64,000 nt of DNA from Bacteroidales bacterium (GTDB taxonomy: Bacteria > Bacteroidota > Bacteroidia > Bacteroidales > VadinHA17), in NCBI GenBank assembly GCA_003142255.1, contig PLLO01000011.1, positions 310,001-374,000 on the forward strand, in the 5' to 3' direction. A model generated the notes under the pieces. The model did not search any database. It was given only the letters and a program-made list of their open reading frames with translations, and was not told the DNA's origin. The position numbers were made by a program, and so were the translations under genes. Every line of letters starts with the position of its first letter. The first letter of the stretch is position 1. This document shows positions 16,244 through 28,841 of this stretch, one piece after another.

Positions 16244-16251
16244 TATTTTTG
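16244..16251 (+). promoter_or_regulatory. Possible -7 element (TATTTTTG) for the yedF-selD operon
   Basis: TATTTTTG matches the Bacteroidota -7 consensus TAnnTTTG and lies 21 nt before the yedF ATG. No convincing TTTG -33 element is seen at 19-21 nt upstream. Confidence 0.3.
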
Positions 16252-16272
16252 CGATCATTAATCTTCAAAATA

Positions 16273-16887
16273 ATGCGGATCATAGATACACAAGGACAGC
16301 AATGTCCGGCTCCAATTATAGCGACAAAGAGAGCACTTAAAGAGTCAGCTGCAGGGGACTCCTTCGAGGTTTTAACCGACAATAAAACTGCACTCGACAA
16401 CATTTCCAGATTTCTTAAAGACAATAAGACTGCATATTCAGTTATGGAAAACAGCGGTGTCTGGACCATTACTGTTACAAAGGGCAATAAGGATGTCATT
16501 TTAACAAATGCTGAAGTTTACTGCACCCCTGAAATACCTCATTTTTCTAAGGGTGATTTTATAATTGTCTTCAATTCCGATAAAATGGGAGAAGGAGATG
16601 AGGAGCTGGGGCGTCTGCTTATATCAAATTTTATTAAAGCAATAAAGGATCTTGATAAGCTCCCGGATAAAATTATCTTTTATAATAACGGAGTAAAGCT
16701 TGGAAGCATCGATTCTCCCGTTTATGAGAATCTTAAAGAGCTGGGAAGCATGGGTGTAGGCATGCTCTTCTGTGCCACCTGCACTAAGTACTATTCGCTT
16801 GAGGAAAAGATTAAGATCGGCACCCTTGGCAATATGTTTGAAATAGCCCAGGTAATGGCTTCTGCCGGAAATATTATAAAGCCATGA
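16273..16887 (+). CDS. yedF: Sulfurtransferase-like selenium metabolism protein YedF
   Basis: A 204-residue cytoplasmic protein. The start at ATG 16273 gives MRIIDTQGQQCPAP, the expected beginning. Residues 1-75 form a TusA/SirA-like domain with the CPxP motif (Cys11). The remainder is DsrE-like (FIIVFNSDKMGEGDEELGRLLISNFIKAI) and ends with a CATC motif (about residues 167-170) near TKYYSLEEKIKIG. This layout is that of the YedF family linked genomically to SelD. It is proposed to carry persulfide or selenide, but its reaction is not established. It lies 19 bp before selD, so the two are surely one operon. Confidence 0.88.
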   Translation: MRIIDTQGQQCPAPIIATKRALKESAAGDSFEVLTDNKTALDNISRFLKDNKTAYSVMENSGVWTITVTKGNKDVILTNAEVYCTPEIPHFSKGDFIIVFNSDKMGEGDEELGRLLISNFIKAIKDLDKLPDKIIFYNNGVKLGSIDSPVYENLKELGSMGVGMLFCATCTKYYSLEEKIKIGTLGNMFEIAQVMASAGNIIKP

Positions 16888-16906
16888 CTCTAACTGCCTT
16901 CAAACG

Positions 16907-17947
16907 ATGAAAATAGATCTTCTGCAAATGGTCGAAAATGGAGGATGTTCTGCCAAGATCCCCCCGCGGCAGCTTGAGGAGATACTTAAATACCTGCCAT
17001 TGCCGGAAGATCCGAATATTCTTGTAGATATTGATACTCACGACGATGCAGGCGTCTATAAGGTTAATGACGAGCTTGCTCTTGTGCTGACGACAGATTT
17101 TTTCCCACCCGTATGCAGTGATCCCTATGAGTTTGGCCAGATAGCAGCAGCCAACTCAATAAGTGATGTATATGCTATGGGCGGAACACCGGTCGTGGCG
17201 CTCAATATACTGATGTTCCCCGCTGCCCGGCTTCCGATGGAAGCTTATGCTGAGATCCTGAAAGGGGGTTCAGATATGGCATCTGAAGCAGGTTTAAGAA
17301 TAATCGGCGGACATACGATCGATGATTTTCCTCCCAAGTACGGATTGGCAGTTGTCGGCTATATTCATCCGGAAAAGATCATAACCAATGCCGGAGCCAG
17401 ACCAGGCGATTCCCTGATACTTACAAAACCAATAGGTACCGGGACAATTCTCGCCGGGCAAAGGCTTAATATGGCCGACAGAAAGGATATCGATGAAGCG
17501 CTCAGGCTGATGAAGCTTCTGAATAAATCGGGTGCTGAGGTGATGAAGAAATATGATATCAAAGGGGCAACGGATGTCACAGGTTTTGGACTTGCAGGTC
17601 ATATACTTAAAATGGCAAGGGCAAGCAAGGTCTCTGTCAGGATAAATATGAAGAAAGTCCCTCTGATCGGAAATGCTTACAAATTAATTGATGAAGGCTG
17701 TATTCCGGGCGCTGCATTCCGCAACCTGGAATATGCCGAAACTGATACTCTGTTTGCACCCGATCTGGATTATAATCTGAAAATGCTGGCTTATGATGCC
17801 CAGACTTCAGGGGGGCTGATTATTTCAGTACCACATGATCTGGAGAAAAAGATTATAGCAGAGCTTAAAGACGCAGGTCTTGAGGATAGTTCTGTTATCG
17901 GTTATGTTACTGAACCTGCGGGTAAACTAGTGCACTTAGACAACTGA
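16907..17947 (+). CDS. selD: Selenide, water dikinase
   Basis: A 346-residue enzyme making selenophosphate, the selenium donor for selenocysteine tRNA and selenouridine tRNA, from selenide and ATP. The N-terminal glycine-rich loop GGCSAK holds Cys14 and Lys17, equivalent by position to catalytic Cys17 and Lys20 of E. coli SelD. This is therefore the Cys form, not a selenocysteine form. Other blocks are [52 protein letters not shown] and [15 protein letters not shown]. Length is normal. No selA, selB or mnmH/ybbB gene is present in the window to show which product is made. Confidence 0.95.
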
Positions 17948-17964
17948 AAATATTAATTTCAAAG

Positions 17965-19125
17965 ATGGCAGAAAAACAAGATAAGCGAATGGAGATAAGC
18001 AAAAGTATTCAGGGATTGTCAAGCCTGATAGGTAATACCCCTTTGCTTGAGATAGAATTTCTTTATAAAGGCAAGCCTGGTAAGATCTACGCAAAAGCAG
18101 AACATCTGAATATGACCGGCAGCATAAAGGACAGGATGGCATTGTATATTATGCGCGAAGCTTATGCACGCAAATTAATCGAACCCGGCTTCCGGGTAAT
18201 TGAAGCAACTAGCGGCAACACTGGGATTTCATTCTCGGCAGTCTGCAGGGCTCTTGGTCACCCCGTGACTATTTTTATGCCAGATTGGATGAGTGAAGAA
18301 CGCAAGAACCTTATCCGCAGCCTTGGTGCCGATATTGTGCTTGTTAGTAAAGAGGAGGGAGGATTCCTGGGAAGCATCAAGCGTACACTGGAGATGGCTG
18401 CGGCTGATAAGAAGACTTTTCTGCCAAGGCAGTTTGAAAATAATGATAATTCGATGGCTCATTATACCACCACGGGACCAGAGATCTGGTGGCAGCTAAG
18501 GATGCATGGAAAAATAACCGATGCATTTGTTGCCGGTGTTGGTACGGGAGGAACAATAATGGGAACAGGACGCTACCTGAAAGAGATGAATCCGTCTGTC
18601 AGGCTTTACCCTCTTGAACCATCCAATTCTCCGACTATGTCAACCGGTTACAAGATAGGAGCCCATCGCATACAGGGTATTTCAGATGAATTTATTCCTG
18701 CTATTATCAAGCTCGATGAACTTGATGAGGTCGTCTCTGTCGATGACGGAGATTCGATAATAATGGCACAGAAGCTGGCAAGCGAGCTGGGAATAGCTGT
18801 GGGAATTTCATCAGGAGCGAATTTCCTGGGTGCTCTGATGAAGCTTGAAGAGTTGGGTCCCGATGCTAATATTGTTACAGTATTTTCTGACGATAATAAA
18901 AAATACCTGAGCACGGGCCTGATGAAAAAAGAGCCTGTCAAAGAAGGCTTTTTATCGACGGATGTAAAACTTAAATCATTTAGGGCGTTAAAGCGCAACT
19001 GCATAACCTGCTGTAATCCTGCTGAATGCAGGGAAGTAGTTGATCCTGAAGTAATAAAAGATATCAATTTCCCGCCCTGCTATTTACGGAGTCTGAAAGA
19101 TGGGAGCCGGAATGTGGAAAGCTGA
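17965..19125 (+). CDS. Cysteine synthase family PLP enzyme with Cys-rich C-terminal tail
   Basis: A 386-residue fold-type II PLP enzyme. PLP lysine K55 lies in [20 protein letters not shown] binds substrate, and [15 protein letters not shown] binds PLP phosphate. The family (CysK/CysM) makes cysteine from O-acetylserine or related substrates and sulfide. Residues about 330-386 exceed the usual core and carry RNCITCC, AEC and FPPC, five cysteines that could bind metal or carry persulfide. It follows selD by 17 bp. Selenide-dependent or sulfide-mobilising activity is an inference from context only. A cystathionine beta-synthase or other beta-replacement enzyme is possible. Confidence 0.82.
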
Positions 19126-19167: not shown

Positions 19168-19185
19168 TGTAACAAAAACGTAACA
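19168..19185 (+). promoter_or_regulatory. Putative PhoB box upstream of the PiT transporter
   Basis: Two direct repeats, TGTAACA (19168-19174) and CGTAACA (19179-19185), are separated by 4 bp, an 11-bp period. Canonical Pho boxes are two 7-bp CTGTCAT-like repeats with a 4-bp spacer, so the geometry is the same. The -7 element TAATTTTG starts exactly 31 nt downstream. The same layout occurs before phoU on the other strand. Confidence 0.6.
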
Positions 19186-19216
19186 GGTATTAATTATTTA
19201 AAAGGTTAAGTGTTTG

Positions 19217-19224
19217 TAATTTTG
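19217..19224 (+). promoter_or_regulatory. -7 element (TAATTTTG) for the PiT gene
   Basis: A TAnnTTTG match 31 nt after the putative PhoB box and without a good -33 element, as expected for an activator-dependent promoter. The implied leader is about 75 nt. Confidence 0.45.
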
Positions 19225-19307
19225 TGCTCAAGAAATTGAACATAGAACCTTATTATCTGGAATATTGGACATATGAGGAGTTTACAAACTATATCACTTA
19301 ATCAGAA

Positions 19308-20294
19308 ATGACATTTTTATATATTGTAATCGGGCTCACTCTTGTATTTGATTTTATTAACGGGTTTCATGACTCCGCAAACTCAATTGCAACAGTTGTT
19401 TCAACAAAAGTTTTGTCTCCTATTGCTGCTGTAGGTCTTGCTGCCACATTTAATTTTGTGGCTTTCCTGATCTTCCCTCTTAAAGTTGCCACCACTATTG
19501 GCAAGGGTGTAATTAATCCTGAGATAATAAGTCTTCAGCTTATTGGATCAGCTGTTGTGGCTGCAATTATATGGAATCTTATTACATGGTGGATGGGACT
19601 ACCTTCAAGTTCATCCCATACTCTTGTTGGAGGCCTGGTTGGAGCCGCAGTTGTCAGTCATGGATTTGGATCTGTCGTTATTGCAGGAGTTATGAAGATA
19701 GTGATTTTCATTGTTGTTGCTCCTGCTCTAGGAATGATAATGTCATATATTATTTCAATTATTGTAATGCACATTGTGAAGAATTACTCACCAGCCGGAA
19801 TTGATCGCTGGTTCCGGAGGCTTCAGCTGCTTTCTGCATCAGCTTTCAGCCTTGGCCATGGCGGTAATGATGCTCAGAAATCAATGGGTATAATATGGGT
19901 TGCCCTTATTGCAACCAACCATGTTGCTAAAAATGCTCCCATAGCTTTATGGATTGTTCTGTCATGTCATGCTGCAATTGCACTTGGAACATTGTTCGGT
20001 GGATGGCGTATCGTCAAAACTATGGGGCAGAGAATAACGAAGCTCAGGCCTTTTGAGGGATTCTGTGCCGAAACTGCCGGTGCTCTGACACTTTTTGGGG
20101 CCACTCATTTTGGGATACCCGTTAGCACAACACACACAATAACAGGTGCCATTATGGGAGTCGGGGCAGTAAAGGGTGTTTCTGCTGTTAAATGGGGTGT
20201 TACCAGGAAGATATTCTGGGCATGGATCCTTACTATCCCGATCTCAGCACTTATTAGTGCCGGCATTTTTCTGATTTCAGGACTGTTGTTTTAA
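19308..20294 (+). CDS. Inorganic phosphate transporter, PiT family
   Basis: A 328-residue inner-membrane protein with about ten hydrophobic segments. Both PiT signature repeats are visible: the first as GFHDSANSIATVVSTKVLSP (about residue 20), the second as SLGHGGNDAQKSMGIIW (about residue 180). GIPVSTTHTITGAIMGVGAV lies in the C-terminal half. PiT proteins import phosphate, often as a metal-phosphate complex, using proton or sodium symport. It is placed at the head of the Pho block, with a putative PhoB box upstream, so it may be phosphate-regulated here. In E. coli pitA is not controlled this way. Confidence 0.93.
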   Translation: MTFLYIVIGLTLVFDFINGFHDSANSIATVVSTKVLSPIAAVGLAATFNFVAFLIFPLKVATTIGKGVINPEIISLQLIGSAVVAAIIWNLITWWMGLPSSSSHTLVGGLVGAAVVSHGFGSVVIAGVMKIVIFIVVAPALGMIMSYIISIIVMHIVKNYSPAGIDRWFRRLQLLSASAFSLGHGGNDAQKSMGIIWVALIATNHVAKNAPIALWIVLSCHAAIALGTLFGGWRIVKTMGQRITKLRPFEGFCAETAGALTLFGATHFGIPVSTTHTITGAIMGVGAVKGVSAVKWGVTRKIFWAWILTIPISALISAGIFLISGLLF

Positions 20295-20382
20295 CCGGTA
20301 CATATTTACTGCTTTATCTTGGGTCAATTTCATTCAATTGCACCTTGACACGATATTACCTCAGGTTTCCTTTTCAGCTATT

Positions 20383-20455
20383 TGTAACTAATTTGATACA
20401 ATCTCTTAATTATGTTGAAACCATTCTGTGATTATTCCTTCTGACTTTTGTAACA
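20383..20455 (+). promoter_or_regulatory. Weaker PhoB-like repeats upstream of the porin-pst operon
   Basis: GTAACT (20384-20389) and GATACA (20395-20400) are 11 bp apart. The next near-match to a -7 element, GACTTTTG (20443-20450), starts 42 nt after the second repeat, that is 31 plus one further 11-bp turn. A single GTAACA follows at 20450-20455. The phase agrees with the two stronger boxes but the repeats are poorer. Confidence 0.35.
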
Positions 20456-20489
20456 TGAAAAAAACGAAGTTAAATTAAAACCTAAAAGC

Positions 20490-21734
20490 ATGAAGAAATT
20501 TTTTACATTATTGTTTCTATCGGTAACCGGAATAACAGGATTTGCACAGACAACTGTTACGGATTCATTAAAAGAGGTGATATCAAATCACGAAGGAAAA
20601 CTTACTGCACTTGATGAAAGAGTGCTGGTTAACGAGGCAGACCTGGCTAAGCTTAATAAAATAAAGGTCTCAGGATATGTACAGGCACAGTGGGAATATT
20701 ATGGCAAGGATCTTGTAAAGACAAACGAACCGACAAATACGTTTTATATCAGAAGAGCCAGGATCAAATTCACCTATGAACCTGCCGACGGAGTAAAATT
20801 TGTTCTACAGCCTGACTTCAGCACTGGCAACCTCTCTTTAAAGGATGCTTATGCAGTAGTCAATCTTCCTTTTCTTAAAGATTGGACACTTTGGGCTGGT
20901 CAATTCAACAGACCTGATTATGAGGTAGAGTATTCATCGAGCCAGAGAGAAGTCCTTGAGCGTTCAAGACTTATCAGGGCTATTTATCCCGGTGAAAGGG
21001 AGATCGGAGCTAAACTTGAATACATTGGTTCAAAGGTGCCTCTTAAATTCCAGCTTATGGCCATGAATGGCAACTTTACAGGCGCAAATGCAAAGGATGT
21101 CGACAGCAGGAAAGACATTATGGCAAGGCTTGTATATTCTATAAAGATGCCATCTGCCGGTCTCGGAATCGACATAGGCGGTACAGGTTATTTTGGCGGT
21201 AACAAGGCTAAGACAAACCAGTATGTTCTTGAATCAAACGGAGTAGCTGACAGTGTAGCTGTCGGTGACTACCTTAAAAAACAGTGGTTTGGGGCAGAAA
21301 TACAACTGTTTGCTGATGTTCTTGGCGGGCTTGCCCTTAAGGGTGAATACATCACAGGAACCAATTCTACTCCCAGCACAATTGCTTCTACTGCAACTAT
21401 GGCTGCAAAAAAGGCCGATCCTAATAAAGTCAACAATTTCTCGGGATACTATGTTTACCTGATAAAGAATATTGGGCCGAAGAATCAATTTGTTGCAAAA
21501 TATGATTTTTATGATCCAAACACAAAACTTTCGGGTGATGCAGCCGGTTCAAACGTTTATTACAAAACACTTACTCTTGCGTGGCAGTGTTATGTGAATG
21601 ATAATATCAGAATATCTCTTAACTATGAGATGCCTCAGAACGAAAAGAGTGCTTCAGTGAAAAACATAGCCGGAACCGGCAGTACACAGTTGAACGATAA
21701 TACCCTCGGGATCAGGATCCAGGCTAAATTCTAA
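20490..21734 (+). CDS. Phosphate-selective porin O/P family protein
   Basis: A 414-residue outer-membrane barrel with signal peptide MKKFFTLLFLSVTGITGFAQ and a short coiled coil (KEVISNHEGKLTALDERVLVNEADLAKLNK) before the barrel. The barrel begins with KVSGYVQAQWEYYG and has FYIRRARIKFTYEPADGVKFVLQPDF and WAGQFNRPDYEVEYSSSQREVLERS, typical of OprO/OprP. It should pass phosphate or polyphosphate across the outer membrane to PstS. It is 38 bp upstream of pstS and therefore probably the first gene of the pst operon. Selectivity for phosphate is inferred from family and position. Confidence 0.87.
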   Translation: MKKFFTLLFLSVTGITGFAQTTVTDSLKEVISNHEGKLTALDERVLVNEADLAKLNKIKVSGYVQAQWEYYGKDLVKTNEPTNTFYIRRARIKFTYEPADGVKFVLQPDFSTGNLSLKDAYAVVNLPFLKDWTLWAGQFNRPDYEVEYSSSQREVLERSRLIRAIYPGEREIGAKLEYIGSKVPLKFQLMAMNGNFTGANAKDVDSRKDIMARLVYSIKMPSAGLGIDIGGTGYFGGNKAKTNQYVLESNGVADSVAVGDYLKKQWFGAEIQLFADVLGGLALKGEYITGTNSTPSTIASTATMAAKKADPNKVNNFSGYYVYLIKNIGPKNQFVAKYDFYDPNTKLSGDAAGSNVYYKTLTLAWQCYVNDNIRISLNYEMPQNEKSASVKNIAGTGSTQLNDNTLGIRIQAKF

Positions 21735-21772
21735 TTTATAAACAAGTATTAATAATTCTAATAATAACAGAA

Positions 21773-22603
21773 ATGAAAATTATCAATAAAATCGCCGCAA
21801 CACTGATGGTCGTGACACTATTCTCAGGTTCGGCATTAGCACAGGCTAAGATCACTGTCAAAGGATCTGATACCATGGTTATTCTGGCTCAGAAATGGGC
21901 TGAATTATATATGAAGACTAACAAAGCTTCCATTATTCAGGTTACAGGTGGAGGATCAGGAGTTGGAATCACTGCTCTTATCAACGGTACAACTGATATA
22001 GCAGATGCAAGCCGTCAAATGAAACAGACTGAAATTGAAAAGCTTAAAGCTCGCTACAATACTCTTGGAGTTGAGATTCCCTGCGCTAAGGATGGTGTGA
22101 CTATCTACCTTAATGAGGCTAATAAAGTTAATGAACTTACGCTTAAGCAGCTTAGCGATATTTACACCGGAAAGATCAGGAACTGGAAGGAACTTGGCGG
22201 CGATGATACAGAGATCAGGCTTTATGGCCGTGAAAACAGCTCGGGAACATATGTTTTCTTTCATGATGAGGTAGTTAAAGCCGACTATTCGTCGAATGTT
22301 CAGAGTCTGCCTGGTACTGCTGCTGTTGTAAATGCAGTGAAGAAGGATATTAACGGAATAGGTTATGGTGGTGCTGCATATGCTGTAGGTGTAAAACATG
22401 CTTATGTGAAAAAAGATGCAAACAGCAAAGCTTATGTGCCAACAGCTGAATCAATTGCAAAGAATTATTATCCAATAACACGCTATCTCTATATGTACCT
22501 CAGAAACAGGCCGACAGGTGAGACAAAAAAATATATTGACTGGATACTTGGTTCGGAAGGGCAGAGCATAGTTACAGAAGTTGGTTACTTCCCGGTTAAA
22601 TAG
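21773..22603 (+). CDS. pstS: Phosphate ABC transporter substrate-binding protein PstS
   Basis: A 276-residue periplasmic protein with signal peptide (about 1-23, SGSALAQA). Phosphate-binding blocks are VKGSDTMVILAQKWAE, TGGGSGVGITALINGTTDIADASR, LYGRENSSGTYVFFHDEV and INGIGYGGAAYAV. It delivers phosphate to the PstCA permease. The gene is separated from pstC by 113 bp that hold a strong hairpin, which could let pstS mRNA accumulate above the rest of the operon. Confidence 0.95.
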   Translation: MKIINKIAATLMVVTLFSGSALAQAKITVKGSDTMVILAQKWAELYMKTNKASIIQVTGGGSGVGITALINGTTDIADASRQMKQTEIEKLKARYNTLGVEIPCAKDGVTIYLNEANKVNELTLKQLSDIYTGKIRNWKELGGDDTEIRLYGRENSSGTYVFFHDEVVKADYSSNVQSLPGTAAVVNAVKKDINGIGYGGAAYAVGVKHAYVKKDANSKAYVPTAESIAKNYYPITRYLYMYLRNRPTGETKKYIDWILGSEGQSIVTEVGYFPVK

Positions 22604-22634
22604 TTGGTTTTAGGTTAGAGTAGTTTTTACCCGG

Positions 22635-22657
22635 CCTGTCAGACAGAATCTGACAGG
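22635..22657. terminator. Hairpin between pstS and pstC
   Basis: CCTGTCAGA (22635-22643) and TCTGACAGG (22649-22657) form a perfect 9-bp stem with a 5-nt loop. No T-run follows, so it is more likely an mRNA-protecting or attenuating structure than a full terminator. Similar CTGTCAG palindromes are common between Bacteroidota genes (recalled). Confidence 0.5.
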
Positions 22658-22716
22658 TCAGGTATTATAAAGAACAATAGTAAATAGTGATTTTGAAAGT
22701 TATTAAGTATAAAAAA

Positions 22717-23757
22717 ATGAATAATTCCGGTGAACCGGGAAAAATTTCTTTTGCAACAAAGAAATTCAGGTTTTCCGACTGGTTTGCTGAAAGGTTTATA
22801 AAGGTTGTGGCTTTCATGTCAATTGCCTTTGTTGCCCTGATTTTCATTTTTGTTTTTCGTGAAGCCTTTCCGGTTTTCAGAATGGATGTCATACAAAAGG
22901 TTGGGTCTGAAAACCTTGTTCAGGAGAGATATGGAGAAGAACCGTTAACTCCGGCAACAGCAAATCCGGTTTCCGGGTCTGACATTAAGGTTAGCAAACC
23001 CTCCTCAACTTTGCTTGCCAGAGTATGGATGCCGGTATCTGATAATCCGCGATATGGACTTATCCCTTTATTCTTGGGGACCTTGAAAGTCACTTTAATC
23101 GCCTTGTTATTTGCTGCTCCTATTGCAATACTTGCGGCTATTTATACTTCGATGTTCGCAAAACCAAGGATCAGGGAGGTTATCAAGCCGGTTATTGAGC
23201 TTCTGGCGGGTTTCCCCTCTGTTGTAATCGGCTTCTTCGCCCTGATGGTCCTTGCGACTGTTTTTCAGGACATCTTCGGCTATGCCAGCCGGCTTAATTC
23301 ATTTGTAGGTGGCTTTGCAATGAGTCTTGCTGCAATCCCGGTTATTTATACAATTACTGAGGACGCTTTGACTGCGGTGCCAAAAACTTATATTGAAGCC
23401 AGTCTCGGGCTCGGAGCAAGTAGACGTCAAACAGCTTTTAATGTAGTATTGCCGGCAGCTGCCCCCGGGATTTTTGCAGCCGTCATTCTCGGACTAGGGA
23501 GAATATTCGGGGAAACAATGATAGCACTTATGGCTACCGGTAATGCAGCACTGACATCAATCAATCCTTTTGAATCAGTAAGGACATTATCAGCTACTAT
23601 CGGCGCTGAGATGGCCGAGGTTGTCTTTGGCGATACCCACTACAGCGTACTTTTTTTGATAGGATCGCTTTTATTCATTTTTACGTTTATCCTGAACGCC
23701 GTCAGTGAGTTCTATTTCAAAAACCTTGTGATCAGAAGATATCAGTCTAAAAAATAA
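22717..23757 (+). CDS. pstC: Phosphate ABC transporter permease PstC
   Basis: A 346-residue inner-membrane permease. ATG 22717 was chosen over the in-frame GTG at 22687. After the first membrane segment there is a long periplasmic loop (about 60-115), then five further segments. The ABC permease EAA-like loop is EDALTAVPKTYIEASLGLGASRRQTAFNVVLPAAAPGI. Other family blocks are ELLAGFPSVVIGFFAL and LGLGRIFGETMIALMATGN. It pairs with PstA. The extended loop is a feature I associate with this phylum. Confidence 0.94.
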   Translation: MNNSGEPGKISFATKKFRFSDWFAERFIKVVAFMSIAFVALIFIFVFREAFPVFRMDVIQKVGSENLVQERYGEEPLTPATANPVSGSDIKVSKPSSTLLARVWMPVSDNPRYGLIPLFLGTLKVTLIALLFAAPIAILAAIYTSMFAKPRIREVIKPVIELLAGFPSVVIGFFALMVLATVFQDIFGYASRLNSFVGGFAMSLAAIPVIYTITEDALTAVPKTYIEASLGLGASRRQTAFNVVLPAAAPGIFAAVILGLGRIFGETMIALMATGNAALTSINPFESVRTLSATIGAEMAEVVFGDTHYSVLFLIGSLLFIFTFILNAVSEFYFKNLVIRRYQSKK

Positions 23758-23810
23758 AGTCGATAAAATTGTCTTGTTAATTAATTAACAGTAAAATAAG
23801 AGATCAGAGA

Positions 23811-24704
23811 ATGAACAGAAACCGGAAAGATATAATTATCGAAAGTCTCACAGGAATTTCCGTTCTGTTGATCATATTCATTATTGTATCAATTCTTGCC
23901 ATTACTATAAAAGGAGGGTGGCCAAACCTGACATGGAAATTCCTATCGGAATTTCCGCGGGACGGCATGACAAAAGGAGGGATATTTCCTGCAATAGTGG
24001 GAACTGCATTTATGACGCTCATCATGACGATTGCTGCAGTTCCATTTGGAGTGATAACAGCTCTTTACCTTGCTGAATACGCTAAAGAGAATTCAGTTTT
24101 CGCAAAAACAATACGCTTTGCCGTAAAGACACTTGCAGTCGTTCCTTCAATTATTTTTGGTCTTTTCGGACTGGGCTTTTTTATCGGGTTCATAGGACAG
24201 AACATGGATAAAATATTCAATGGTGGTGTCCTGAAATGGGGCCAGCCAAGTATTTTATGGGCAAGCCTTACTATGGCCCTCCTTACCTTACCGGTTGTAA
24301 TTGTTTCGGTAGAAGAGGCAATCCGCACAATTCCCGTTGAAATGAGGGAAGCGAGCCTGGCCCTTGGAGCCACCAAATGGCAGACAATAAAAAGAGTTGT
24401 ATTGCCCGGTTCCGTGACAGGTATCCTGACAGGAACGATCCTCGCAATAAGCAGAGGGGCAGGTGAAGTTGCTCCCATCCTTTTTACAGGTGCGGCATAT
24501 TATCTTGCCGATCTGCCTCATTCGCTAAGCGACCAGTTCATGTCTTTGGGATACCATATTTATATAATGTCGACACAGTCGTCAAATGTCGATGCTACTT
24601 TGCCGATTCAATTTGCAACAACATTGGTGTTGCTGCTGCTTACTTTCTCTCTTAATGCGGTTGCCGTAGTACTCAGATACAGAATAAGACAAAAAGCTAA
24701 ATAA
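23811..24704 (+). CDS. pstA: Phosphate ABC transporter permease PstA
   Basis: A 297-residue inner-membrane permease with about six membrane segments. Visible blocks are [49 protein letters not shown] and the EAA loop [41 protein letters not shown], then [19 protein letters not shown]. It forms the channel with PstC and is energised by PstB, whose gene begins 8 bp after this one ends. Confidence 0.95.
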
Positions 24705-24712
24705 AGATTTTG

Positions 24713-25471
24713 ATGGAGAATTTAAAAGTCAGAGCAATAAACCTTTCATTATTTTACGGGGATAATCAGGCTCTGAAAAATATCAGTCTTGACATTCCCG
24801 AAAAGAGAGTTACCGCATTAATCGGACCCTCAGGATGCGGGAAATCGACTTTTCTGAGGACTCTCAACAGGATGAATGATCTTATTGATAATGTCAGGAT
24901 TGAAGGTGAGGTTCTGATTGACGGTGTAAACATTTATGACAGGGATATTGATGTCGTCAATCTCAGGAAAAAAATCGGAATGATATTCCAGAAATCGAAT
25001 CCATTTGCAAAGTCGGTCTATGAAAATATCGCATTCGGACCAAGAATTAACGGAATAACCCAGAAAAGCCGGCTGGATGAAATCGTCGAGTTTTCTCTAA
25101 AACAGGCTGCAATCTGGGATGAGATGCAGGGCAGGCTGCACAACTCCGCATTAAGCCTTTCAGGCGGCCAGCAGCAGAGGATATGTATTGCCCGTTCTCT
25201 CGCTGTAAATCCTGAAATAATCCTTATGGATGAGCCCGCAAGTGCTCTTGATCCGATCTCTACCGGAAAAATCGAGGAGCTAATACATGACCTGAAGCAG
25301 AAATATACGATTATAATTGTGACTCACAATATGCAGCAAGCTGCGAGGACAAGTGATTTGACCGCTTTCTTTTACCTTGGAGAACTGGTTGAGATAAACA
25401 AAACCGAGATTATCTTTTCAAATCCAGGCAAAAAACAAACCGAAGATTATATCTCAGGTCGCTTTGGTTAG
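24713..25471 (+). CDS. pstB: Phosphate ABC transporter ATP-binding protein PstB
   Basis: A 252-residue ATPase. Walker A is GPSGCGKST, the signature motif is LSGGQQQR, and Walker B is [13 protein letters not shown], followed by the switch His in [34 protein letters not shown] is characteristic of PstB. ATG 24713 was taken as start rather than TTG 24710. The gene ends 14 bp from the end of the convergent histidine kinase. PhoU is not in this operon but follows the regulators on the opposite strand. Confidence 0.96.
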
Positions 25472-25485
25472 TAGATCCTGACCCT

Positions 25486-27249
25486 TTATTTGGGAAGTGT
25501 AAACAGGAATTCAACACCTCCACCTGTTCTTTTCCTTACAGAAATATCACCCTTGTGAAGAATAACGGCATTCTTAACTATTGCCAGTCCGAGTCCTGTA
25601 CCTCCGCTCTTTCTCGACCTTCCGGAATCGATCCTGTAAAATCTTTCAAACACCCTTGACAAATGCTCGTCAGATATACCGGCACCATCGTCAGAAAAGG
25701 TGAAATGATGGAATTCCTTGTCATTGTTATATACTGCGATCTTTACCGTTGAGTTTTCTCCTGCATAATTCACTGAGTTCTCAAGGAGGTTCTGGAATAT
25801 TGAAAGAATAAGCGACCTGTTCCCTGTAACTGTTACATCTTCAATGCTTTCAGCTACAATCTTCATCATTTTAGAGTCAATAGCTGACTTGAAATTGTTG
25901 CTAACTTCTTCAATTATTCCCCCTATGTTTACTTTTTCTACAGTAAAGCTGTTACCGGCTTCTTCAATCTTGTTAAGTACCGAGATATCATTTATAAGTG
26001 CTGTAAGCCTGTCGCTTTGTGCAAGGGCTTTCTCAAGGAAATACCTGAGCTTTTCAGGAGAGATTGTAGGATCATTAAGAAGAGTCTCAAGATAACCCTT
26101 CACAGAAGCAACAGGAGTTTTTAATTCATGAGCAATATTTGAAGTCATCTCCTGCTTTATGATTTTATTCTGCTCAGATTCAGTAATATCACTTATAATC
26201 ACTTCAAAATTATTATCATGGAACGCAACACACTGGACCCTGAAGAACTTGCCGTTCTTTCCGATCCTATAATCCATTTTAGGCAGATTTGCTGAATGAA
26301 TTGTTTCTGCTGACTTCTGATCTATAAATTCACCTACCTTCCTGAACTCTTCGATCCTGAAAAAGCCAGCTGTTGAAATTGAAAGCTCACCTGAAACGAG
26401 GTTCATAAAATGAATGAAATGGTTGTTGGCAAGTATCTTTGACTTATCTGCACCAAAGAAAGCAATACCTTCATTAAGCGCATTCAGGTGGCTGAACAGC
26501 TTTTCCTTTTCTCCGGCAAGATCGTTTTTAGCTTTGAGCAGATTGTTGTATATATCGAGGATCTCTTCACCAATTATACCAAGTTCATTCTTGGGAAACT
26601 TCTGATTAAAGTCAAACGGTTCATTGTTCCCGATTCTCACTGCAAAATCCTTCAGCTTGGTCACAGATTCAGAGAATCTATTCGTAACCAGAAGCATGAT
26701 CAGCCAGATAACAATAAACGTAAAGATTATTATCGGAACGAAATATTTCTTAGCCTTAAGGAAGTTCATGATTGTAATGTCATATACCACTGCTGCCCGG
26801 ATAAAATAGCTGCCATAATACCTGGAGTAATAATAAAACTGCTGACCTGTTGTCCCGGACTTTCTTATTGCTGTTCCGAAATCAGAATAAAGTGATTCGC
26901 TAATTTCCGGCCTTTTAAGATGATTCTCCATCGTTTTCCAGTCGTGGACAAAGCTGTCATAAAGAACAGTTCCTCTTTGATCAACTACAGTAAGCCGGAG
27001 ATTGTTCTGCGGCAGGATTTTTGAAAGGGAATCAACGAGATGATAATCACCGCTTTTATTGATCGAATTCAGCTTTATATAATTATCTACGATTTGGGTG
27101 TATTTTTCAAGCTCATCATTAAGTGTATTTATTCTGAACTCCTTCTCCCTGACATAGAGATATGAAAGAATTACCATAGTGAAAACAGCGAAAATCACGG
27201 AATAATAAAAGAAGATTACATTCCTGAATTTATGTCGATTCGTCAACAT
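25486..27249 (-). CDS. phoR: PhoR-like sensor histidine kinase
   Basis: A 587-residue membrane kinase: segment 1 at about 10-32, a periplasmic domain of about 135 residues, segment 2 at about 170-190, a HAMP-like linker, a PAS-like region (about 240-355), a HisKA domain with [21 protein letters not shown] (phospho-His about 373), and an HATPase domain with N box [11 protein letters not shown]1 DDGAGI and G2 [13 protein letters not shown]. It phosphorylates the PhoB-like regulator encoded 11 bp upstream. The large periplasmic domain is unlike E. coli PhoR, which has almost none. Assignment to phosphate rests on context. Confidence 0.88.
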
Positions 27250-27260
27250 TTAGGTAACTT

Positions 27261-27950
27261 TTATATAGTTTCAAAATAATATCCGTAACCAGTTTTGTTT
27301 TTCAGATTTTCTCCGTATTTGCCCAGCTTGGCACGTATCCTGGCAATATTTACATCAACCGTTCTGTTGGTCACGACAACATCCCTGGTCCAGATTATTT
27401 CAAGAATTTCTTCCCGCGAAAAAAGTTTTCCGGGATTCCGGATAAGAAGACTGATTATTTCAAATTCCTTTTTTGTGAGATCTATTGGCTCACCCTCAAT
27501 TACAAGTCTTTTCCTTCCCGGATCGAGCCCGATATTTCCCGAGTGGATGATTTTATTCTCTGATTTTACCGGCTTTTGGCCTCTTTTTACTACAGCCTTT
27601 ATCCTTGCTGTCAGCTCATTAATTGAAAAAGGCTTGGAAATATAGTCATCAGCGCCAAGGCTGAATCCTGTAAGAAGATCATTTTCAGTATCTTTTGCAG
27701 TAAGAAATATAATGGGCACATTGTCGTTAAGCTCCTTCCTGAGTTTATCTGCCATTTTAAAGCCTGACATCGGACCCATCATTACATCAAGAAGAAGAAG
27801 ATCAAATTCATTAAGAGGTTTCTTTAATGCCTCTTCTGCTGAATGAGCCACATCTGTTACAAACCCCTCATTATTCAGATTATATTGAAGTATCTCACAA
27901 AGATCCTCTTCATCATCAACAATCAGTATCTTTTTCCCCCTGAAATCCAT
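27261..27950 (-). CDS. phoB: PhoB-like response regulator
   Basis: A 229-residue OmpR/PhoB-type regulator. The receiver domain has acidic pair D12-D13, phospho-acceptor D55 in LLLLDVMMGPMSG, and the KPFS lysine. The winged-helix domain has IDLTKKEFEIISLLIRNPGKLFSREEILEIIWTRDVVVTNRTVDVNIARIRAKLGKYGENLKNKTGYGYYF. It should bind the GTAACA-type direct repeats described before the PiT and phoU genes. It lies between phoU (10 bp) and phoR (11 bp) in one operon. Confidence 0.92.
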   Translation of the reverse strand: MDFRGKKILIVDDEEDLCEILQYNLNNEGFVTDVAHSAEEALKKPLNEFDLLLLDVMMGPMSGFKMADKLRKELNDNVPIIFLTAKDTENDLLTGFSLGADDYISKPFSINELTARIKAVVKRGQKPVKSENKIIHSGNIGLDPGRKRLVIEGEPIDLTKKEFEIISLLIRNPGKLFSREEILEIIWTRDVVVTNRTVDVNIARIRAKLGKYGENLKNKTGYGYYFETI

Positions 27951-27960
27951 TAAATATATT

Positions 27961-28671
27961 TTAAATCAACTCATCTCCCGGATACTCACTATTCTGCCAG
28001 CTATGCCGGATATCCGTACCCTGCATAGAATAGATAGAAGCTTCAGCTATATTCGTTGCATGATCAGCAATTCTCTCAATATTAGTAATAATATTCTTAA
28101 GGTCTGCATAGCTCAGGAGCATCTCCTTGGTTTTTTTACTCACTTTCGCTTTGGAAATGCTGTTTACCAGAAGCTTACGGTTCATGTCATCAACAACCTC
28201 ATCATTCTTGATTGTCCATACCGCATAGTCCTTGTCATTATTTGAGAATGATATAAGCGATTTCTCAACCATGCTCTTGCTTGACAGCAGCATATTGAGA
28301 ACCACAGCTGACATTTCCTTATATTCGATAGTTTCCTGAATAGCCTCGATAGAATACAGTATGTTCATAACCCGGTCGCCTACGCGCTCCAGATTTATAG
28401 AGATCCGGTAAATTGACATAAGCTTGCGGATATCAGAAGCTACCGGCTGGTGCAATACAATCGAATTGATGATTTTATCACTTATTACGACTTCAAGTCT
28501 GTCTATCTTGTTCTCGTTTTCGGCAATCTCTGTCTTAAGCTTTTCAAGAGGTATATTACTATTTCCTGACATGTACTTGTCGAGCCGTGTAAGCTGCGAA
28601 AGTACAATTTCAGCCATCTCTTCAAAGCAGCTGACAATATCTTGAACTACTTCCTCAATCCTTGTTTTCAT
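27961..28671 (-). CDS. phoU: Phosphate signalling protein PhoU
   Basis: A 236-residue cytoplasmic protein of two three-helix PhoU repeats. Conserved acidic metal-binding blocks are visible as MSIYRISINLERVGDRVMNI and DLKNIITNIERIADHATNIAEA. PhoU restrains PhoR when PstSCAB senses enough phosphate. It leads the phoU-phoB-phoR operon, an arrangement that differs from E. coli pstSCAB-phoU, and it has its own putative PhoB box upstream. Confidence 0.92.
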   Translation of the reverse strand: MKTRIEEVVQDIVSCFEEMAEIVLSQLTRLDKYMSGNSNIPLEKLKTEIAENENKIDRLEVVISDKIINSIVLHQPVASDIRKLMSIYRISINLERVGDRVMNILYSIEAIQETIEYKEMSAVVLNMLLSSKSMVEKSLISFSNNDKDYAVWTIKNDEVVDDMNRKLLVNSISKAKVSKKTKEMLLSYADLKNIITNIERIADHATNIAEASIYSMQGTDIRHSWQNSEYPGDELI

Positions 28672-28774
28672 CTTTTATTTCATTATATATAACTGAAAAA
28701 CTCTGAGGAATATAGAGCAAATGTAAATTTAAATTCTATTTCCTGCCGACTATGATTATTTTATTTATCTGCTG

Positions 28775-28782
28775 CAAAGATA
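28775..28782 (-). promoter_or_regulatory. -7 element (TATCTTTG) for the phoU-phoB-phoR operon
   Basis: On the minus strand TATCTTTG matches TAnnTTTG and starts 31 nt after the putative PhoB box. No -33 element is seen at the usual distance. The implied leader is about 100 nt. Another TAnnTTTG match, TACATTTG, lies at 28718-28725. Confidence 0.45.
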
Positions 28783-28813
28783 ATTACATTAATAATTACA
28801 GTGGTGTCAAAAG

Positions 28814-28841
28814 TGTTACTTAATTGTTACAGTTTTGTCAA
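28814..28841 (-). promoter_or_regulatory. Putative PhoB box upstream of phoU
   Basis: On the plus strand the repeats read TGTTAC (28814-28819), TGTTAC (28825-28830) and TGTCAA (28836-28841), all at an 11-bp period. Reading toward phoU this is GTAACA repeated, the same orientation as before the PiT gene. The -7 element begins exactly 31 nt downstream in both cases. Confidence 0.65.

Follow-up and report, generated by a model that had tools for sequence, protein, structure and literature searches.

Putative Pho-regulon promoters of Bacteroidales combine tandem Pho boxes and a Bacteroidota −7 element in a preferred register

Introduction

How does a phosphate-responsive activator find its place relative to the core promoter in Bacteroidota, whose promoter rules are poorly mapped because their sigma factor reads a different −7 element, often with no clear −33 element? 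The question is raised by a stretch of 64,000 nucleotides from a Bacteroidales bacterium (contig PLLO01000011.1, positions 310,001 to 374,000; hereafter the window), in which the promoters of a PiT phosphate permease gene and of phoU, on opposite strands, share a repeat of GTAACA and its distance to the −7 element TAnnTTTG. Here we report that these are very probably promoters of a Pho regulon, with tandem Pho boxes that PhoB would bind and a Bacteroidota −7 element lacking a −33 partner.

A Pho box consists of at least two 7-bp direct repeats with 4-bp spacers and hence an 11-bp period, as defined in the accessible text of PMC4415409. Within the same phylum, Bacteroides fragilis PhoB bound a 512-bp pstC promoter fragment in gel shifts and was needed for pstC expression, according to the portions of PMC3547664 at hand; no box or register was seen there, and the word “consensus” is absent from its main text. 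The available part of PMC4796936 mentions putative Pho boxes for plcP clusters in marine bacteria without saying whether one belonged to a flavobacterial cluster, and in the available text of a study of the low-phosphate response of Flavobacterium (PMC8115612) “motif” and “promoter” occur 0 times. No published Pho-box register for Bacteroidota was found in the accessible literature on the Pho box, TAnnTTTG, and PhoB; as subscription journals lay mostly outside that search, this is weak evidence of novelty.

Results

Two promoters of the window share a Pho box and its distance to the −7 element

Before PiT, a distal Pho box TGTAACA-N4-cGTAACA occupies 19168–19185 (+), with GTAACA half-sites at 19169–19174 and 19180–19185, separated by AAAAC; counted from the start of the −7 element, they begin at −48 and −37. 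That element, TAATTTTG (19217–19224, +), lies exactly 31 nt past the second GTAACA. Before phoU, a sequence match to the same box, TGTAACA-N4-aGTAACA, is found at 28831–28814 (−), its half-sites at 28830–28825 and 28819–28814 enclosing ATTAA, and again exactly 31 nt lead to the −7 element TATCTTTG (28775–28782, −). An earlier note on this DNA had singled out this shared repeat and spacing, and both are exact at PiT (+) and phoU (−); the 7-bp repeat with its 4-bp spacer has Pho-box geometry, as that note recognized, and stands in the same orientation to the −7 element at both genes. The usual −33 element is spaced 19–21 nt before the −7 box, and neither promoter has a TTTG at that distance, in keeping with the −33 element having been described as missing from both; one TTTG in the phoU promoter lies about 5 nt upstream of the usual place. 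Transcripts are predicted to start near 19229 (+) for PiT and near 28770 (−) for phoU.

The phoU promoter has further, less regular units: proximal half-sites TTGACA (−28) and GTAATT (−17) at 28794–28810 (−), with 11 nt separating the latter from the −7 element, and an extra upstream half-site TTGACA (−59) at 28836–28841 (−), where a similar unit is conserved in relatives.

The exact 17-mer GTAACA-N5-GTAACA occurs in the window only in the PiT and phoU promoters, and the same two matches are the only ones in the genome of 3,729,174 bases (reversed-pattern control, 0). At up to two mismatches the window holds nine matches against 3.3 expected. The full 56-bp pattern has two exact matches genome-wide, seven others at three mismatches being close to the reversed-control level (six), and TAnnTTTG by itself is uninformative, with 62 window matches against 53 expected. 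When the window was ranked with a weight matrix of 57 columns, made from 38 chosen sites of other families and none from the family of the window genome, PiT scored 31.0 bits, phoU 30.7, and the promoter of a porin gene 18.7, the next best site reaching 4.9; the best score in 50 simulated first-order Markov windows was 12.5. Left out of the matrix were the near-duplicates L143, L154, and L169, locus L155 from the window genome’s own genus, and L160, L164, L166, L173, and L186, which have no phosphate link.

The signal recurs before phosphate genes across the order

In 295 genomes of the order, with the reversed pattern as control, a spacing fixed at 31 nt and at most one mismatch gave 49 matches in 42 genomes and none in the control. 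This is far from chance; equal frequency at random sites was the outcome that the earlier note had named as fatal to its proposal. With the spacing free between 16 and 46 nt, 16 of 20 matches lay at exactly 31 (reversed control, 9), or 14 of 18 once the window’s own genome was removed; the four off the peak were at 19, 20, 44, and 44 nt, two of them within open frames of about 3 kb.

Outside the window’s own genome, 37 of 47 fixed-spacing matches stand at phosphate genes or in pst/pho clusters, which together with the family sites described below (28 of 32) bears out the expectation that a scan of this genome and its relatives for the repeat, N31, and TAnnTTTG would find mostly phosphate genes. 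Protein comparison accounts for 34 of the 47, with downstream genes for PstS (9), PstC (1), PiT (10), a porin or porin-like protein (10), polyphosphate kinase (ppk; 2), a Na/Pi cotransporter (1), and PhoB (1, at L180). The other three (L183, L168, and L169), counted among the 37, precede a small CarbopepD_reg_2 protein. At L183 a phoB-like gene (58% to the window PhoB) comes immediately after this gene, the box of L168 lies 1.7 kb upstream of a porin-pstS site on the same contig, and L169 is a 96% relative of L168. Downstream open reading frames were assigned by Pfam in 27 of 43 cases and otherwise placed by blastp or tblastn.

Some neighbors of the boxes are worth recording separately. CarbopepD_reg_2 proteins of 114–117 amino acids directly follow a Pho box at L183:1124-1474 (−), L168:1579-1920, L169:1524-1865, and L206:1564-1911, and may be an unrecognized member of the phosphate response. 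DUF5690 membrane proteins, candidate phosphate-related transporters, are encoded beside boxes in two genomes, at L146:168-1466 (−; by Pfam), where the box is oriented toward the gene, and at L161, where the gene, identified by eye, is divergent from it. The exact box and spacing also precede pyruvate phosphate dikinase genes at L153:1615-2082 and L154:3-1442 (−), in two genomes of one genus.

The 31 nt hold a second, weaker pair of half-sites

Order sequences were scored against GTAACA at all offsets clear of the selected repeats, using the 47 without L143, L154, and L169. In the resulting 44, a GTAACA-like unit (at least four of six positions) is found in 23 at −26 and 27 at −15, and in no more than 5 at any other scored offset. 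Because these unselected columns hold half-sites at −26 and −15, the distance decomposes as 31 = 5+6+5+6+9: the typical order promoter has four half-sites with an 11-bp period, the last ending 9 nt before the −7 element. A bare spacer of 31 nt is rejected as a description, given the second, weaker pair in many order promoters. Only 5 of the 44 have a TTTG anywhere from −27 to −15, so the box stands in for the −33 element. A general fifth unit at −59 was not supported in this set (3 of 44).

At −16, −27, −38, and −49 the commonest base is the T of TGTAACA (24, 30, 31, and 29 of 47, respectively), which makes the register that of pstS in Escherichia coli. In E. coli K-12, with TATAGT and TATTTT taken by us as the −10 elements of phoA and pstS, and with positions counted from the first −10 base, half-sites have their TGT at −16 and −27 in phoA, and at −16, −38, and −49 in pstS, where TTACAT occupies −27. 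A −10 element starts at −12. In the accessible text of PMC9723704 the TAnnTTTG box of Flavobacterium psychrophilum spans −12 to −5, so that the −10 and the Bacteroidota −7 elements start at one place. The register is accordingly not peculiar to Bacteroidota, since the pstS half-sites stand at equal distances from the −10 element; the suggestion that this register to the −7 element had not been set out before is uncontradicted for Bacteroidota in the literature searched, while the layout itself is known from E. coli pstS. It is not fully followed in the window’s own genus, where phoU promoters have TGT at −18 and PiT promoters no proximal unit.

Within the family the distal box is kept close to 31 nt from the −7 element

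Among 117 genomes of the family, own included, the exact 17-mer is present in 57 and a phoU relative (E ≤ 1e-10) in 42. When TAnnTTTG was sought within 80 nt after each of the 88 distinct exact sites, its distance was 31 nt for 24 sites, 30 nt for 6, 32 nt for 2, 54 nt for 4, and 33 nt and 53 nt for one each. Those at 30–32 nt precede phoU (18), PiT (9), or phoB (1); the remaining four of the 32 comprise three at contig ends and one before a phosphofructokinase.

The phoU promoters are spaced at 31 nt in 19 of 23 and at 30 nt in 4, only these two values having been tried. The 31-nt spacing thus holds as the mode and fails as a constant, with variation of 1 nt in some relatives. Their profile, from which L085 was omitted, shows hardly any variation in the repeats and the −7 element, and poor conservation in the flanks and from −31 to −19; as it is anchored on the −7 element, its four 30-nt rows blur the repeats. 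Eighteen of the 23 have the proximal unit at −17 and three have it at −16, in place of −15; a unit at −28 is seen in only 3. In the PiT promoters of the genus, a proximal box was looked for and was found in none of 13 at −26 and in one at −15. These 13 were gathered with a widened −7 motif at distances of 30–32 nt only, which four sites did not fit: L027 and L097, with TAATATTG at 31 by eye, the PiT site L092, without a −7 element there, and one that is not a PiT site.

The phoU promoters of the genus also share a strongly conserved TnAnTG block immediately upstream of the −7 element (window 28792–28782, −), a block that might be another half-site overlapping the core promoter; the most informative position of the profile is the G at −5. 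Genome G042 has a dense array of GTAACA/TGTTAC on both strands (L026, about 1501–1600) that adjoins no recognized phosphate genes.

The comparison covered 40 phoU neighborhoods; L068 was unusable because of a contig end. The nine named loci with PhoU relatives come from metagenome-assembled Bacteroidales or Bacteroidia. Own-genus loci mostly share the window’s convergent layout, although the pst set is less similar in some. Another layout, in which pstB, phoU, phoB, and phoR lie on one strand as far as the contig extends over them, is seen at L071-L084, L086, L087, L048, and L049; those among L071-L084, L086, and L087 are mostly from genus g14, L081 being from the window’s own genus.

The porin promoter is a fuller array

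Five half-sites with an 11-bp period lie upstream of the porin gene at 20384–20433 (+), namely GTAACT (20384), GATACA (20395), TTAATT (20406), GAAACC (20417), and GTGATT (20428), at −59, −48, −37, −26, and −15. They are followed, 9 nt past the last, by the −7-like element GACTTTTG (20443–20450, +), in whose place relatives have (G/C)ACTTTTG or GATTTTTG. With a matrix score of 18.7 against 4.9 for the next site and a simulated maximum of 12.5, this promoter is counted as the third member of the set. The repeats had been described as lying one 11-bp turn further out, which is right for the first unit; as −48 and −37 are occupied too, the array is a longer one that includes the PiT and phoU positions and not a shifted copy.

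Full arrays are also present in genus g14, before porin-like genes followed by pstS or phoB. In family porin and phoB promoters with a full array, G or C often replaces the first T of TAnnTTTG (the window element, L061, L067, L079, L114, and L117), and such promoters may be more dependent on PhoB.

Outside the order the signal is weaker

Exact-form matches in 395 genomes drawn from the phylum numbered six outside the order (control, 3), none at 31 nt, and phylum-wide use of the exact GTAACA form at this spacing is rejected on that count. A scan of 239 of the 247 genomes that belong to the class but not to the order found 16 matches at 31 nt with at most one mismatch, against four in the control, all four in those 239. 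Pfam was applied to 10 of the 16 downstream genes and found one PstS, one Porin_O_P porin, and one response-regulator fragment; the other seven were a TonB-receptor plug, a phosphoesterase, a histidine phosphatase, a CarbopepD_reg_2 protein, two with unrelated domains, and one without a family. A weaker form of the signal thus exists in the class beyond the order.

The window encodes a phosphate cluster with its own PhoB

PiT (PHO4; PF01384) is encoded at 19308–20294 (+), followed by the Porin_O_P outer-membrane porin (20490–21734, +; PF07396), which lies upstream of pstS, pstC, pstA, and pstB (21773–25471, +; PF12849, PF00528 twice, and PF00005), an order found in relatives. On the opposite strand are a PhoR-like sensor kinase with HisKA and HATPase_c domains (25486–27249, −), PhoB with Response_reg and Trans_reg_C domains (27261–27950, −), and PhoU (27961–28671, −; PF01895). 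The window PhoB shares 37% identity with its E. coli counterpart and, in the DNA-binding domain, matches chain 1gxp of that protein. The accessible text of PMC3348028 describes 1gxp as a PhoB-DNA complex and names W184, G185, V190, and D192 as polymerase-contact residues; at these residues the window PhoB keeps W and V, and does not keep G and D. In the family, PhoB is present in 75 of 117 genomes at E ≤ 1e-55, and in 13 of the 14 other genomes with a PiT box.

Upstream of PiT, at 16249–19125, is a three-gene group of presumably TusA/YedF-like, SelD-like, and cysteine-synthase-like genes, which we take to be a possible selenium cluster.

Discussion

The promoters described here resemble known Pho boxes in exact repeats at the two sites before PiT and phoU, phosphate genes downstream, an encoded phoB, and a replaced −33 element. 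Under phosphate shortage, PhoR would phosphorylate PhoB, which would bind head-to-tail to TGTAACA half-sites one 11-bp turn apart and bring RNA polymerase, with the primary sigma factor of Bacteroidota, to a −7 element that has no −33 partner. Promoters of the general form have GTAACA starts at −48, −37, −26, and −15 from the first base of TAnnTTTG and thus two tandem Pho boxes, the proximal one over the −33 place and the distal one just upstream, so that the 31 nt consist of the proximal box plus 9 nt. The window’s own genus departs from this form in its phoU promoters, whose proximal unit is displaced outward by 2 nt (−17), and in its PiT promoters, with the distal box only.

Several observations weigh against this reading of the locus. 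The −7 consensus is weak, and strict TAnnTTTG within 80 nt follows only 9 of 16 family PiT sites, all nine at 30–32 nt. A clear phosphate link is missing for ten of the 47 matches in the order: two are beside DUF5690 genes, one at a calcineurin-like phosphoesterase, two at pyruvate phosphate dikinase, and five are unlinked, one of them inside a coding frame. Single matches off the 31-nt peak are meaningless, as the spacing-free control gave nine against 20, and match counts are not independent events, because orthologous promoters are related by descent. Genome G057 (88% complete), which has a PiT box, gave no PhoB match at the cut-off of E ≤ 1e-55. Besides PhoB, the window genome encodes seven other OmpR-type (Trans_reg_C) DNA-binding proteins; with eight in all, PhoB is a likely rather than a proven binder of the boxes.

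The alternative with most to recommend it overlaps with the proposed mechanism and turns on which box works: the distal pair would be essential, the weak proximal units auxiliary or relics, and PhoB would act from upstream while the −33 region stays free. The PiT promoters of the genus retain the distal pair and nearly all lack a proximal unit, and conservation in the phoU promoters, a set collected through the protein instead of the motif, is higher for the distal pair than for the proximal unit. Against this, the pattern of the order scan itself selected for a strong distal pair, and proximal units are still kept, in 23–27 of 44 order sequences and, at −17 or −16, in 21 of 23 phoU promoters; we regard the idea as possible and somewhat unlikely. 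Equally tentative is the related proposal that PhoB promoters of Bacteroidales hold the distal box locked to the −7 element (30–32 nt) even where the proximal box is missing, as in own-genus PiT, or shifted by 2 nt, as in phoU. If true, PhoB would exert its activation at about −60 to −44, adjacent to the sigma region-4 site without covering it, and would contact the divergent Bacteroidota sigma factor or the alpha subunit, unlike the arrangement of E. coli phoA.

Much less probable is the use of these sites by another OmpR-family regulator, such as a WalR/YycF-like one, instead of PhoB. The order distal-pair consensus TGTAAC-N5-TGTAAC fits the WalR/YycF pattern TGT(A/T)A(A/T/C)-N5-TGT(A/T)A(A/T/C), also written TGTWAH-N5-TGTWAH, given in the accessible part of PMC5405149, and the other Trans_reg_C proteins of the genome supply candidates. 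Both window boxes miss that pattern by one base, the T of the second unit being C in PiT (cGTAAC) and A in phoU (aGTAAC). The targets differ as well: WalR/YycF would be expected at cell-wall genes, but order-wide the genes examined are mostly phosphate genes, phoB itself included (L180), no cell-wall gene stood out among them, and phoB belongs to the same cluster in the window. Chance repetition in AT-rich intergenic DNA, although short repeats with two mismatches do arise randomly and the spacing-free control was nine, is rejected as practically negligible by the genome-wide, spacing, order-scan, and simulated-window controls, namely 49 matches against none, the sharp peak at 31, the gene context, and the matrix scores.

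Compared with E. coli, the 7+4-bp direct repeats and the position of the box over the −35/−33 place are alike, whereas the half-site is CTGTCAT there and TGTAACA here, and a TATAAT-like −10 element takes the place of TAnnTTTG. In E. coli phoA the clear units are proximal, with a weaker CTTTTCA near −38; own-genus PiT has the distal box alone. The PhoP box of Bacillus subtilis consists of TTAACA repeats, almost identical to GTAACA and with the same 11-bp period, but belongs to another phylum and core promoter.

As judged from comparative sequence data, the conserved promoter described here belongs to a known kind of Pho promoter, and we found no description of this form for Bacteroidota. A Pho-box matrix of fixed register would allow the low-phosphate regulon to be predicted across an order, and the activator-to-core-promoter geometry of E. 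coli pstS recurs here although the core promoter is another. What is out of the ordinary is the set of distal-only PiT promoters, and they pose directly the question of which contact between PhoB and polymerase is essential.

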